A stretch of DNA of 44,159 nt. It comes from a bacterium. Its GTDB lineage: Bacteria > Bacillota_I > Bacilli_A > RF39 > UBA660. The stretch spans positions 1 through 44,159 of the forward strand of contig JAQXPH010000032.1 of NCBI GenBank assembly GCA_029100545.1. Direction: 5' to 3'. Positions 22,047-26,754 of this stretch are shown piece after piece. Position numbers and translations under genes: made by a program. The first letter of the stretch is position 1, and every line of letters starts with the position of its first letter. The notes beneath the pieces were generated by a model. That model was given only the letters and a program-made list of their open reading frames with translations, was not told the origin of the DNA and ran no database searches.

Positions 22047-23254
22047 AAAAATTAATAAAAATAATATTAGTTTTATTGTTAATGTTTTCTTTTAATCATA
22101 AAGTTGATGCTGCAGCAAATACACTTGCTGATTTAAAAAAAGAACTTCAAGAGTTAAAGTATGAAAAAGCACAAAATGATGCTGCTAAAAACAAAACACA
22201 ATCAGAAATTAATGCTGAAAATAGTAAAATATCTAGTGCTCATAATGAAGTTGAAAAGGCAGAAGAAGATATAAATCAAGCAAAAATACAAATTGAAAAT
22301 TCAACAAAAGAAATTGAGAACATGAAACAAAAAGCAGAAGAAATGCTCACATTTTATCAACTTATTAGTAATGATAGTTCTTTTTTAGACTTTGTTGGAG
22401 GTGCAAGTAGTGCTACTGATGTAGTTATGAGATCTGATGCAATTAATCAAATAATTGAATATACTCAAAATGAATTGAAAAAAATGCAATCTTTAATTGA
22501 AGAAAATCAAGAACTACAAGTAGATTTAGTAAAAAAACAAAATGACTTGGAAGAAAAAATAAAAGAATATGAAAGTAGTTTAGCTTCTTTAAAAAATGAT
22601 TTGTCTTCGCTTGTTGAAGTTACACTTGATATTTCAGAGCAAATTGCTGCGCAAGAAAAACTTATTAAATATTATGAAGATATTGGATGTAAAGATAATG
22701 ATTTATTATCAAAATGCGTAGATGTTGCTAATAGTTCAAAATTTTTAAGACCAACTATACGTGGATATATTTCATCTGGTTTTGGTTGGAGATCATTTTA
22801 TTTAAATGGCAAGCCTTATTCTGATTATCACCCAGCAAATGATATAGCTGGAAATGCTGGTGGTACACAAGTATACGCCACTGCTGCAGGAACTGTAGCT
22901 GCCGTTATTTCAAAAGCTAGTTGTGGAGGAAATCAAGTATATATTCATGTTCGAGTTCAAGGTGTTGCATATACATTAACATATGCTCATTTAATGGATG
23001 TATATGTAAAGGTTGGAGACGTTGTTACTCAACAAACTGTAATTGGTACAGTAGGTGGAGGCGGTAAAACATTAAAAGTAAATGGAGGATGGGATACCTG
23101 TTCTACTGGATATCATTTACATTATGCCGTAACTAAAGGATTTTATCTAGGTGGTGGCTCAGAAGGTTATACAAGTTATAGTAAATACATTTCAAATAGT
23201 ATACAGCCACCAAATTTACCAGCTTATGGTAAATGGTATTATTCAAGGTATTAA
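22043..23254 (+). CDS. Secreted coiled-coil M23 peptidoglycan hydrolase (EnvC-like, probable FtsEX effector)
   Basis: Signal peptide; long coiled coil 30-220; M23 domain with YHPANDIAG (HxxxD) and YHLHYAV (HxH). Confidence 0.9.
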   Translation: MKKLIKIILVLLLMFSFNHKVDAAANTLADLKKELQELKYEKAQNDAAKNKTQSEINAENSKISSAHNEVEKAEEDINQAKIQIENSTKEIENMKQKAEEMLTFYQLISNDSSFLDFVGGASSATDVVMRSDAINQIIEYTQNELKKMQSLIEENQELQVDLVKKQNDLEEKIKEYESSLASLKNDLSSLVEVTLDISEQIAAQEKLIKYYEDIGCKDNDLLSKCVDVANSSKFLRPTIRGYISSGFGWRSFYLNGKPYSDYHPANDIAGNAGGTQVYATAAGTVAAVISKASCGGNQVYIHVRVQGVAYTLTYAHLMDVYVKVGDVVTQQTVIGTVGGGGKTLKVNGGWDTCSTGYHLHYAVTKGFYLGGGSEGYTSYSKYISNSIQPPNLPAYGKWYYSRY

Positions 23255-23928
23255 TGAAAATCATTATAATTATCTTAATAATGTTTTCTTTATCTAGTTG
23301 TAAAAAGGAAGAAACATTAATTATAAGTAATAATACAACAACAAAAGAAATTGAAACAGTTAATGAAGTAGAGCAATACATAGATAATAATCCTTTAAAT
23401 ATTTCACTTTATTTGGAAAGTAATACCGGATTTAATAAACTAAATGACGATATTAGTAAGTCTTGGATTCCTAAAAAAGATATAATAGTTTTATGTGCAT
23501 TTTATACAAATGATGAATTTATAAATTTAGATTTTTATCAAAATATTTGGAAATATTATGCAAACACTATAGATAATGTAAATAATTATAAGATTGGTTG
23601 GGAAATATCTTTTGAAACTAATGAAGGAAAAATACATAAAACATTAAACATGCCAAAGGATGCAATTGATTTTTATGATTATCTTGAAATTTATTTATAT
23701 GATAGTTTAAATCAAGAATTAGGAGCATGGTATTCACATTTACTTGATGAACAAGTAAATGAAAAAACTTTAATAACAACAATAAAATTAACTTGTGGCA
23801 GTAAATGTAGTGAAATAATCTCTAATATTTACATAAAAGTGTTTACATATGACGATAATGAAGACTTTAATGAATCAGGCTTTTATCGTGGCAAAAGTTA
23901 TAGTAGTTTAGTTATAAAAAAAACGTAA
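23254..23928 (+). CDS. Uncharacterised lipoprotein
   Basis: Start ATG 23254 (TAATG coupling); lipobox MKIIIIILIMFSLSSCKKEE. Confidence 0.7.
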   Translation: MKIIIIILIMFSLSSCKKEETLIISNNTTTKEIETVNEVEQYIDNNPLNISLYLESNTGFNKLNDDISKSWIPKKDIIVLCAFYTNDEFINLDFYQNIWKYYANTIDNVNNYKIGWEISFETNEGKIHKTLNMPKDAIDFYDYLEIYLYDSLNQELGAWYSHLLDEQVNEKTLITTIKLTCGSKCSEIISNIYIKVFTYDDNEDFNESGFYRGKSYSSLVIKKT

Positions 23929-23951
23929 TCAATAATTTGGTTACTTTTTTT
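23925..23951 (+). terminator. Terminator after the ftsEX-M23-lipoprotein operon
   Basis: GTAATC...GGTTAC stem then T7. Confidence 0.6.
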
Positions 23952-23974: not shown

Positions 23975-24003
23975 TTGTTATCTTATTTTATTCATGTTAT
24001 AAT
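23975..24003 (+). promoter_or_regulatory. Extended -10 promoter TTGTTA-N17-TATAAT (TGt) for the DxDxDG repeat protein
   Basis: -35 at 23975-23980; TGTTATAAT with -10 at 23998-24003. Confidence 0.7.
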
Positions 24004-24026: not shown

Positions 24027-26072
24027 GTGAACAATAATGATGATTTAATAATAGATACTAATGATTATGAAGATCAAAAGAGAATTATTGAAGAAGAAAA
24101 AAAACAAGATAAAAAAATAAAAAATAATATTTTATTATCCTGTGCTTTTTTAGTTTTTATAATAATTATTATTATACTAAGTTATTTTATATTTTACTTT
24201 TATAAAACTTATGATGGTAGTTTTTCAGATGGTTTTGACAAATGTAAATTTATTAATATTAAACCAGATAATAGTAAAATACCATTTGTAAATATTTCTA
24301 ATAATGATAGTTGTAAACCCGAATATAATATTGACTATATTCAAAATGGTAGGCCATATTTTAATATAGATTTATTTGGAAATCAAACAAAAATATTTAA
24401 TGAAGTTAATATATCTGATTCAAATGGATTATGTAAAATTAATTGTGATTCTAATAATGATGGATGGCCAGATTATAATATTGATTTAAATAGTGATGGA
24501 TTAGCAGATTTAAATATTATATTTAATTATAAGAAAAAAAATACCTGTGATTTAAATTGCGATTTAGATAAAGATATGTTGCCTGATACAAATATTGATA
24601 TAGATGGTGATGGAAAAGCAGATATTAATATTAGTGAAGATGATTACACAAAACCAAAATATAATATTGATTATAAAGGAAATAGAACAGCAATATTTAA
24701 CGTAAAAGATGGAAATGGAAATATTAGTAATCGATTAAACCAACTTGATAATAATGGTAAATGTCAAAAAAATTGTGATATAGATAATGATGGATGGCCA
24801 GATTATAATATTGATTTAGGCAACGGAATATTAATTAACAACTTAATCAATTCAAATGATACTAAGAATATTGAATATAATAAAGGTAAAAATATTGATT
24901 GGAAATGTAGAATAGATAATGATTGTAAAATAAATTCCTATAGTTTGCAAAATACTTATATAAATATTGATATAGATGGTGATGGAAAAGCAGATGTTAA
25001 TATTTCAAATGATGATGGAAATACCTTGACAAATGAAATAAATAAAAAAATTAATAATGAAATATTAAATTATGATATAGATAATGATGGTTTTCCTGAA
25101 TATAATATTGATATTGATAATGATGGAATAGCAGACATAAATATAATAGATAAAAACAATAAATGTATAAAAAATTGTGATATGAACAATGATGGAATAG
25201 CAGATTATTTAATTAATATAAACAATAATATTATATTAGTTGGAATTGATACTGATTATGATGGTAAATGTGATGTAAATTGTGATATTAATTATGATTT
25301 ATATCCTGATCTTAATATTGACATAGATGACGATAATGTCCCAGATATTAATATTGATTTTGATAAAGATGGCAAAGCAGATTTTAACATTGATACAAAT
25401 AATGATGGCAAAGCAGATTTAAATATTGATGTTTATGGACTGGGAATTTGCAATTTCAATTGTAAAATGAGTGATGGTACAATTTCAAATGCTGTTAATA
25501 GTTCTAATAATTGTATAAAAAATTGTGATACAAATGGTGATGGAATGCCAAATCTTAATGTAGATATTAATGATGATGGTATTTGCGATTTCAACTGCAA
25601 TGATGGATCAGAAAAAATCGATAGTGACTATAATTATTATGAAGATGATAAATATAAAAATGAACAAAATATTTTAGAAATAGCTAAAGGAATAGATAGT
25701 AATCTATATATATATAATCCTTTAGAGATTCTATCATTAGACATTGAACCAGGTTGGAATGGAACATATGTATTAAAAATAAAAAATAATTCTAATTATG
25801 CAGTAGCATATAAAATACTTTGGAAAAATGTTTATAATGATTTTACAAATATTAATAATTTAGATTACTTTATTACAAGAAGTAATATATCATATTTAAA
25901 TAATTTAAAGGCACCAAAAGAAAATATTATTTTAGAAGATGAAGTGTTGATTAAAGATAATACAACAGTAAAATATGTTTTACATATGTTATGGAAAGAA
26001 ACTGGTGAAAATCAAAACATAGATAGTGGTAAAACATTTAAAGGACAATTTTATATAGAAACAATTCATTAA
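24027..26072 (+). CDS. Membrane-anchored acidic, Cys-rich EF-hand/TSP3/dockerin-like repeat protein with C-terminal TasA/camelysin-like region
   Basis: GTG start after aaggag; N-terminal TM; about 16 DxDxDG-type loops (13 with intact DG), e.g. DIDNDGFPEYNIDIDNDGIADINI; 8 CxxxC motifs; C-terminal LSLDIEPGWNGTYVLKIKNNSNYAVAYKILW. Confidence 0.85.
   Translation: MNNNDDLIIDTNDYEDQKRIIEEEKKQDKKIKNNILLSCAFLVFIIIIIILSYFIFYFYKTYDGSFSDGFDKCKFINIKPDNSKIPFVNISNNDSCKPEYNIDYIQNGRPYFNIDLFGNQTKIFNEVNISDSNGLCKINCDSNNDGWPDYNIDLNSDGLADLNIIFNYKKKNTCDLNCDLDKDMLPDTNIDIDGDGKADINISEDDYTKPKYNIDYKGNRTAIFNVKDGNGNISNRLNQLDNNGKCQKNCDIDNDGWPDYNIDLGNGILINNLINSNDTKNIEYNKGKNIDWKCRIDNDCKINSYSLQNTYINIDIDGDGKADVNISNDDGNTLTNEINKKINNEILNYDIDNDGFPEYNIDIDNDGIADINIIDKNNKCIKNCDMNNDGIADYLININNNIILVGIDTDYDGKCDVNCDINYDLYPDLNIDIDDDNVPDINIDFDKDGKADFNIDTNNDGKADLNIDVYGLGICNFNCKMSDGTISNAVNSSNNCIKNCDTNGDGMPNLNVDINDDGICDFNCNDGSEKIDSDYNYYEDDKYKNEQNILEIAKGIDSNLYIYNPLEILSLDIEPGWNGTYVLKIKNNSNYAVAYKILWKNVYNDFTNINNLDYFITRSNISYLNNLKAPKENIILEDEVLIKDNTTVKYVLHMLWKETGENQNIDSGKTFKGQFYIETIH
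24453..25600 (+). repeat. Degenerate 36-bp (12-codon) coding repeats
   Basis: Identical 35-mers ataatgatggatggccagattataatattgattta at 24454-24488 and 24784-24818; aatattgatatagatggtgatggaaaagcagat at 24591-24623 and 24963-24995. Confidence 0.85.
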
Positions 26073-26088
26073 ATGAAAGGAGAAAAAA

Positions 26089-26724
26089 ATGGTAACTAAA
26101 AAAATGAAAATTAAGTCAATTATTAATTATGTTTGTTCAGTTATATCGTGGACATTATTTTCAATTTTAATAGTTTGTGCTGTATTACTTGCATATTATT
26201 TTGTTTCAATGAAGTTATATATTGCAAAAGGTGATAAATATAAACCATTTTTTTCGGTTTATACTATAGTAAGTCCTAGTATGGTTCCAACAATTAATGT
26301 TTATGATATTATAATTAATAAAGCGGTTAATAACCCTACTGATATACAAAAAGAAGATATTATTACTTTTACTTCAACAGGAGTTCTTTCTAATGGATTA
26401 ACTGTAACTCATAGAGTACAAGATATTACTACTAATAAAGAAACAAATGAATATGAGTATATTACAAAAGGTGATAATAATCTTATTGCAGATGACGCTC
26501 CAGCCAAATATAGTAATTTAATTGGAAAAGTTATTTTGCGTTTTCCTGGACTAGGAAGAGTACAAGCTTTTGTAGGAAGTAAATTAGGATGGTTAGTTGT
26601 TGTTATTATTCCAGCATTAATAATTATTATTCAAGACGTACTTAAATTAATTAAGGTTACTAAATATAAGAAAATTGCTGATATTGAAAATGAACGTTTA
26701 GTAAGTGAAATAGAAAATAAATAA
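26089..26724 (+). CDS. SipW-like / ER-type (S26B) signal peptidase I
   Basis: VSPSMVPTINVYDIIINKA (catalytic Ser), LTVTHRVQDI (His), ITKGDNN...DDAP, C-terminal TM. Confidence 0.93.
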   Translation: MVTKKMKIKSIINYVCSVISWTLFSILIVCAVLLAYYFVSMKLYIAKGDKYKPFFSVYTIVSPSMVPTINVYDIIINKAVNNPTDIQKEDIITFTSTGVLSNGLTVTHRVQDITTNKETNEYEYITKGDNNLIADDAPAKYSNLIGKVILRFPGLGRVQAFVGSKLGWLVVVIIPALIIIIQDVLKLIKVTKYKKIADIENERLVSEIENK

Positions 26725-26754
26725 AAATTGATGTATCATACACCAATTTTTTTT
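26724..26754. terminator. Bidirectional terminator between the SipW-like gene and the symporter
   Basis: AAAATTG..TGTA-TCA-TACA..CAATTTT with T run. Confidence 0.7.

Follow-up and report, generated by a model that had tools for sequence, protein, structure and literature searches.

The window, i.e., the whole stretch of 44,159 nucleotides that was analysed (contig JAQXPH010000032.1 of assembly GCA_029100545.1, GTDB lineage Bacillota_I; Bacilli_A; RF39; UBA660), carries on its forward strand two open reading frames at 24027-26072 and 26089-26724, which are 16 bp apart and correspond exactly to the pair reported in a preliminary description of this DNA. The first encodes a membrane protein in which a ladder of 12-residue repeats precedes a TasA/camelysin-type C-terminal domain (hereafter, the tip), and the second encodes a SipW-like signal peptidase. 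The features of the unit and of its borders are the following:

23925-23944, + strand: terminator-like hairpin with a T run behind it (T7 at 23945-23951), fold -7.3 kcal/mol, z -3.6
23975-24003, + strand: promoter-like TTGTTA-17 bp-TATAAT with an extended -10 (TG), 10/12 consensus, weak evidence
24027-26072, + strand: coding sequence of the ladder protein, the putative stalk, 681 aa, GTG start, with full-length genus orthologues about 50% identical
24027-24122, + strand: charged N-terminal segment, aa 1-32, with a (D/E)xxxQxxIxEEE motif conserved in alignments, predicted to be cytosolic
24123-24203, + strand: single transmembrane (TM) segment by hydropathy, aa ~33-59, ending in SYFIFYFYK, related in degenerate form to the SipW-type signal GAT(F/Y)(A/S)Y found in sister genera
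24432-25598, + strand: DxDxDGxxDxN(I/C) ladder, aa 136-524, from motif counts
25668-26069, + strand: TasA/camelysin-like domain, aa 548-681, at the extreme C-terminus, from profile comparison and AlphaFold/Foldseek
26076-26082, + strand: AAAGGAG, ribosome-binding site of the peptidase gene, read from the sequence of the 16-bp gap
26089-26724, + strand: coding sequence of the S26B SipW-like signal peptidase, 211 aa, ATG start, over the TIGR02228 cut-off
26723-26751, + strand: terminator-like hairpin and U/T run 3′ of the unit (-6.2 kcal/mol, z -2.3)

The hairpin at 23925-23944 is found between the gene of an upstream 231-aa lipoprotein and the ladder-sipW unit, and, together with the hairpin and U-run located 3′ of the peptidase gene, it makes a two-gene transcript plausible. 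The 3′ hairpin is stronger on the minus strand (-10.8 kcal/mol, z -4.8), where it would serve a convergent symporter gene. It had been claimed that the unit has its own promoter and is followed by a terminator. The 10/12 promoter-like string is indeed present, but such strings are equally common in shuffled sequence (41 observed in the region versus 41.2 in shuffles, i.e., chance frequency), and thus an independent transcript is plausible only. The same holds for the terminator, since RNA folding gives the hairpin plus U-run, whereas a pattern scan of the region detected none.

The membrane anchor assumed in the preliminary description was supported by hydropathy, which places one TM segment at the N-terminus of the window protein. 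According to the same simple hydropathy criterion, 46 of the 47 ladder proteins compared have one TM segment near the N-terminus, and the remaining one is truncated by a contig end. An HMM of the signal, for which the TasA-like proteins encoded upstream of ladder genes were the training set, matched the ends of the TM segments in about 20 ladder proteins from sister genera at 15-40 bits, while the window's genus was uniformly weak and the window protein, at -3.7 bits, scored lowest of the 47. The signal was also weak or absent in several ladder proteins paired with SipW (L117, L120, L135 and L149), and a search of the window protein with TIGR04088 (SipW-type signal peptide) gave no match. The preliminary description had suggested that the protein is matured by SipW; given so degenerate a signal, this cleavage is doubtful for the window protein, which more likely stays in the membrane. 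A second class of ladder proteins (L080, L142, L145, L147 and L152) carries a conserved, putatively cytosolic domain of about 90 aa before the TM segment, with the same ladder and tip, and has no adjoining SipW gene where the flank is visible.

The DxDxDG signature of Ca2+ loops is known from thrombospondin type 3, dockerin, EF-hand-like and Sdr repeats. The ladder shares this signature and differs from them in its strict 12-residue spacing, the N at position 11 and the coupled cysteines at positions 8 and 12. In the window protein it comprises 13 strict DxDxDG motifs, 15 relaxed 12-residue units and eight CxxxC pairs, and across the ladder proteins 699 motif spacings equal 12 residues. Cysteines 8 and 12 always occur together, with 417 units carrying both, 727 neither and none a single one; as these units are not independent, the split was also counted among the 792 distinct 12-mers, giving 250 with both, 542 with neither and none with one. 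Altogether, 1206 of the 1253 ectodomain cysteines lie within CxxxC. When a relaxed repeat pattern was used, apparent breaks of the rule appeared, and the exceptions seen were out-of-register matches, e.g. DGKCDLNCDTNG. From these residue patterns, the ladder may be expected to bind Ca2+ through its DxDxDG motifs, and each cysteine pair would form a disulfide within its unit.

None of the Pfam Ca2+-binding repeat models recognises the ladder in the window protein or in the other ladder proteins; the TSP3, dockerin and EF-hand models did not match them at all, and matches of the Sdr/Clf model on one sister protein were far under the cut-off. The full-length AlphaFold model is poor (pLDDT 50) and nothing about the ladder can be read from it. 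The number of motifs per protein ranges from 4 to 85, with protein lengths of up to 1401 aa, and a freely varying middle between a constant TM segment and a constant tip is as expected of a stalk. In two related genomes (L062:5380-6690 and L083:6608-7885), the ladder is swapped for another middle, which in the former is a Cadherin-like PF12733 domain, and the TM segment, the TasA-like tip and the SipW neighbour are retained. In a further variant (G020, L061:2260-4293), a Cys-rich CDRNCDDGSFGG repeat replaces most of the ladder and the SipW gene is found upstream instead of downstream.

Direct searches of Pfam, NCBIfam and PDB sequences with the window protein or the tip profile did not return TasA or camelysin, and, with E values allowed up to 1, neither PF12389 nor NF046066 matched the window protein. 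The homology therefore rests on intermediates and on the fold. An HMM of 11 such C-terminal domains matched, at 81 bits, a stand-alone 222-aa protein of genome G019, which itself passes the cut-offs of PF12389 (camelysin) and TIGR04088. Compared with a profile of 29 stand-alone SipW-signal proteins, among which PF12389 is matched by 10, TIGR04088 by 6, TIGR04090 by 5 and NF046066 (TasA) by 1, the tip profile aligned over 133 columns, the PGW and NQN...GK.F blocks among them, with an hhalign probability of 99.6% (E 3.4e-24). As a negative control, the neighbouring lipoprotein family reached 0.3%, a value by which the 231-aa upstream lipoprotein was also rejected as a hidden TasA-like subunit. 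For the tip, AlphaFold gave a model with a core pLDDT of about 80-92, and its best Foldseek match among 350,542 PDB chains is the TasA fibre 8aur, at a modest E of 1.7e-3 and TM of 0.49. Thus, as had been supposed from the sequence pattern, the C-terminal ~135 aa are a TasA/camelysin-type domain, identified via intermediates and predicted fold. The tip model was built from 14 sequences, and the tip ends 0-11 aa from the C-terminus in 47/47 ladder proteins.

The assignment of the second gene to the S26B type, with Ser in SPSMVPT and His in THRV, was likewise upheld. The peptidase scored 86.3 bits with TIGR02228 (S26B/archaeal-ER type; cut-off 51.85), and Ser64 (codon 26278-26280), His108 (codon 26410-26412), Asp129 and Asp135 are invariant in the genus alignment. 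It fails the NCBIfam SipW equivalog NF046067 (75.5 bits, cut-off 190), and for this reason it is designated SipW-like and not SipW proper. Hydrophobic segments are present at both its N- and C-terminal ends. The ladder-paired peptidases cluster on a tree but do not form one clade, and a search for related loci with the peptidase alone as query gave zero matches. At one locus (G128, L198:1434-2840), two tandem SipW-like genes lie immediately 3′ of one ladder protein. In other members of the genus, an ORF of 80-95 aa (xxDIIVLDNxERYxLL...), absent from the window, is found 3′ of sipW at the following positions:

L052:8002-8244
L053:7203-7472
L054:10173-10415
L055:2134-2421
L056:10532-10807
L057:11060-11335
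L058:11461-11715

Within the genus, the ladder protein was present in 8/9 further genomes searched, and both the repeat protein and the peptidase are about 49-55% identical among the genomes having them. In genomes with enough flank, the gene order is ftsE-ftsX-M23-(lipoprotein)-ladder-sipW, followed by the convergent symporter gene. One genome of the genus (G001) lacks the pair; it also lacks the M23 gene, and its rubrerythrin locus is not syntenic, so that the absence cannot be read as a clean joint deletion. The lipoprotein gene (23233-23928), located between the M23 and ladder genes, is 38-43% identical within the genus, and its product matches no Pfam or NCBIfam family above cut-off. At the level of the family, where most sequences come from metagenome-assembled genomes, the tip domain was detected in 115/386 genomes and 49/150 genera, and in a sample of 346 genomes across the class, 19 genomes matched the tip profile, with all matches listed belonging to the same family.

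SipW is the next gene in 29/43 evaluable ladder loci (20/34 outside the genus), and ten ladder loci have no SipW nearby. We estimate the chance of such adjacency at well under 1%, considering about four SipW-like genes and roughly a thousand genes per genome. This agrees with the earlier proposal of a SipW-like gene as the partner, the pairing being regular in the genus and in many sister genera. Since the 47 ladder proteins and the 43 evaluable loci were picked by the tip domain, a ladder-only query was used as the reverse test; it returned 79 genomes, and the tip was also found in 68 of these versus 47/307 other genomes. Three of the 11 genomes with a ladder and without a tip, all from one genus, were opened; in each of them, a SipW-signal-like gene lies upstream and the C-terminus closes with a similar NQN-type end. 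Additionally, in many loci of sister genera the ladder gene is directly preceded by stand-alone TasA-like genes with a SipW signal, one to three in number, while in the window's genus no subunit genes adjoin the unit, and a search of the window genome with the tip domain found no second protein of the tip subfamily. Elsewhere in that genome, contig C39 holds at least three additional SipW-like genes beside TasA-like proteins. The region concerned (L050, G000:C39:14000-33000, and L051, G000:C39:33000-48000) is a dense one: it holds several SipW-like genes and small TasA-like proteins whose signals are of the TYAWF/SYAWF type, besides surface-like ORFs that are very large (over 850 and 1789 aa) and are cut by the stretch ends. 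These divergent TasA-like proteins are candidate fibre subunits for the window organism.

The known gene orders of such systems are tapA-sipW-tasA in Bacillus subtilis and sipW-tasA and calY in B. cereus, TasA and CalY being matured by SipW. The unit shares with them the TasA/camelysin beta-sandwich and an S26B SipW-like peptidase and, in sister genera, the upstream SipW-signal TasA-like genes. However, TasA and CalY are free small subunits, whereas the domain described here sits as a tip at the C-terminus of a 681-aa membrane protein, behind a DxDxDG ladder. The order is (tasA-like)-ladder-sipW, unlike tapA-sipW-tasA, and in the window's genus there is no adjacent subunit gene and the signal is degenerate; both the different order and the fused ladder had been pointed out before and are confirmed.

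In B. subtilis, the TapA gene immediately precedes sipW, and its product is the proposed anchor and nucleator of TasA fibres (PMC9674648, PMC10151520). The ladder gene is also directly upstream of sipW and accessory to TasA-like genes, which is a positional analogy only. TapA is cleaved and donates the strand at its own N-terminus (PMC10151520). In the ladder protein, the TasA fold is C-terminal, and thus the molecular roles cannot be identical. Another accessory protein of TasA-type fibres is CapP of B. cereus (PMC13082335). A DxDxDG ladder is not among the features described for TapA or CapP in the accessible parts of these papers, and both are likened to the ladder protein by description, not by sequence. 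As far as the available portion of PMC7395162 goes, the sipW-bsaABCRSD operon of Clostridium perfringens has sipW first and encodes small secreted polymer subunits, with bsaB, bsaC and bsaD described only as putative secreted proteins and no ladder protein among the described features. The likeness lies in the SipW-dependent matrix proteins, and the five stand-alone tip relatives mentioned above match TIGR04090, the BsaA family. A search of an open-access literature collection found no report of TasA together with thrombospondin-type-3 repeats, or of RF39 with such repeats.

We propose, with a probability of roughly 0.55, that the unit encodes a cell-surface stalk with a TasA-like tip and its companion SipW-like peptidase. 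The 681-aa protein would be held in the membrane by its one N-terminal TM helix, and its 12-residue DxDxDGxxDxN(I/C) units would bind Ca2+, with disulfides that link positions 8 and 12 within a unit as staples, so that the braced ladder would form a stiff rod crossing the cell wall. At the outer end of this rod, the TasA/camelysin-type beta-sandwich could dock or nucleate SipW-dependent TasA-like fibres, a job ascribed to TapA in B. subtilis. The downstream peptidase would process the signal peptides of fibre subunits; in sister genera, the stalk would probably be cut by it too. In this respect, the unit looks like a functional counterpart of TapA, i.e., an anchor or stalk for TasA-like fibres, and this anchor-or-tip proposal follows from the TasA-like genes found upstream in sister genera and from the position and role of TapA in B. 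subtilis. In the window's genus, where the unit sits beside ftsEX-M23 without subunit genes, the subunits would have to come from elsewhere in the genome, or the tips would interact with each other.

On the other hand, the ladder protein could itself be the fibre subunit, SipW cutting after the TM segment and the freed N-terminus being donated to the next TasA-like domain, with a beaded Ca2+-dependent filament as the outcome. This explanation is close to that of the preliminary description, and the signal-HMM matches on the TM ends of sister-genus ladder proteins, the adjoining SipW gene and the failure to find another tip-domain protein in the window genome speak for it. We consider it unlikely, since the signal is degenerate in the window protein, weak in its genus and weak or absent in the four SipW-paired proteins cited above, the region before the ladder has no TasA-like donor strand recognisable by eye, and separate small TasA-like genes exist in sister genera. 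Indeed, the single large-protein fibre system put forward earlier fits the window's genus only, and the separate upstream genes, together with the SipW/TasA-like clusters on contig C39, are better suited to an anchor or tip than to a protein that forms the fibre.

About equally improbable is a Ca2+-dependent adhesin or envelope sensor unrelated to fibres, in which the TasA-like fold would be only a binding tip and the SipW-like enzyme would be kept for substrates encoded elsewhere. The second class of ladder proteins, whose members L080, L145, L147 and L152 combine the ~90-aa cytosolic domain with the absence of an adjacent SipW, is in agreement with such a role, as is the position of the genus pair behind ftsE-ftsX-M23, an envelope-remodelling set; however, the immediate pairing with SipW over many genera and the upstream TasA-like genes point to a fibre pathway. 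Finally, a strong A+T and Asn/Asp bias could raise the suspicion of a low-complexity Asn/Asp-rich ORF lying by chance beside an unrelated peptidase gene in a genome of 26% GC. This is already refuted by conservation and can be regarded as vanishingly improbable: full-length orthologues are about 50% identical, their motifs, Cys pairs and C-terminal domain align, and the pairing is conserved.

To our knowledge, there is no settled account, even for Bacillus, of how TasA-type fibres are attached to cells, and we know of little description of TasA-type systems outside Bacillus and Clostridium. With a widespread gene pair that joins a TasA-type domain to a stalk anchored in the membrane and probably stiffened by Ca2+, anchoring would become open to direct testing. 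The ladder would also count as a new repeat whose cysteine rule is unusually strict, and many unannotated proteins of uncultured gut Bacilli would gain a likely function. More tentatively, with odds that we place somewhat below even, the stalk reading may extend to an undescribed appendage common to this family of small-genome gut Bacilli, i.e., a TasA-type donor-strand fibre growing from a covalently tethered acceptor on a Cys8-Cys12-stapled Ca2+ rod, of variable length and with constant tip and SipW. In some genomes (G066, G108, G141, G322, G387 and G398), about eight to ten or more places were scored for the tip domain, in proteins of about 170-1300 aa, suggesting an expansion of TasA-like surface proteins.
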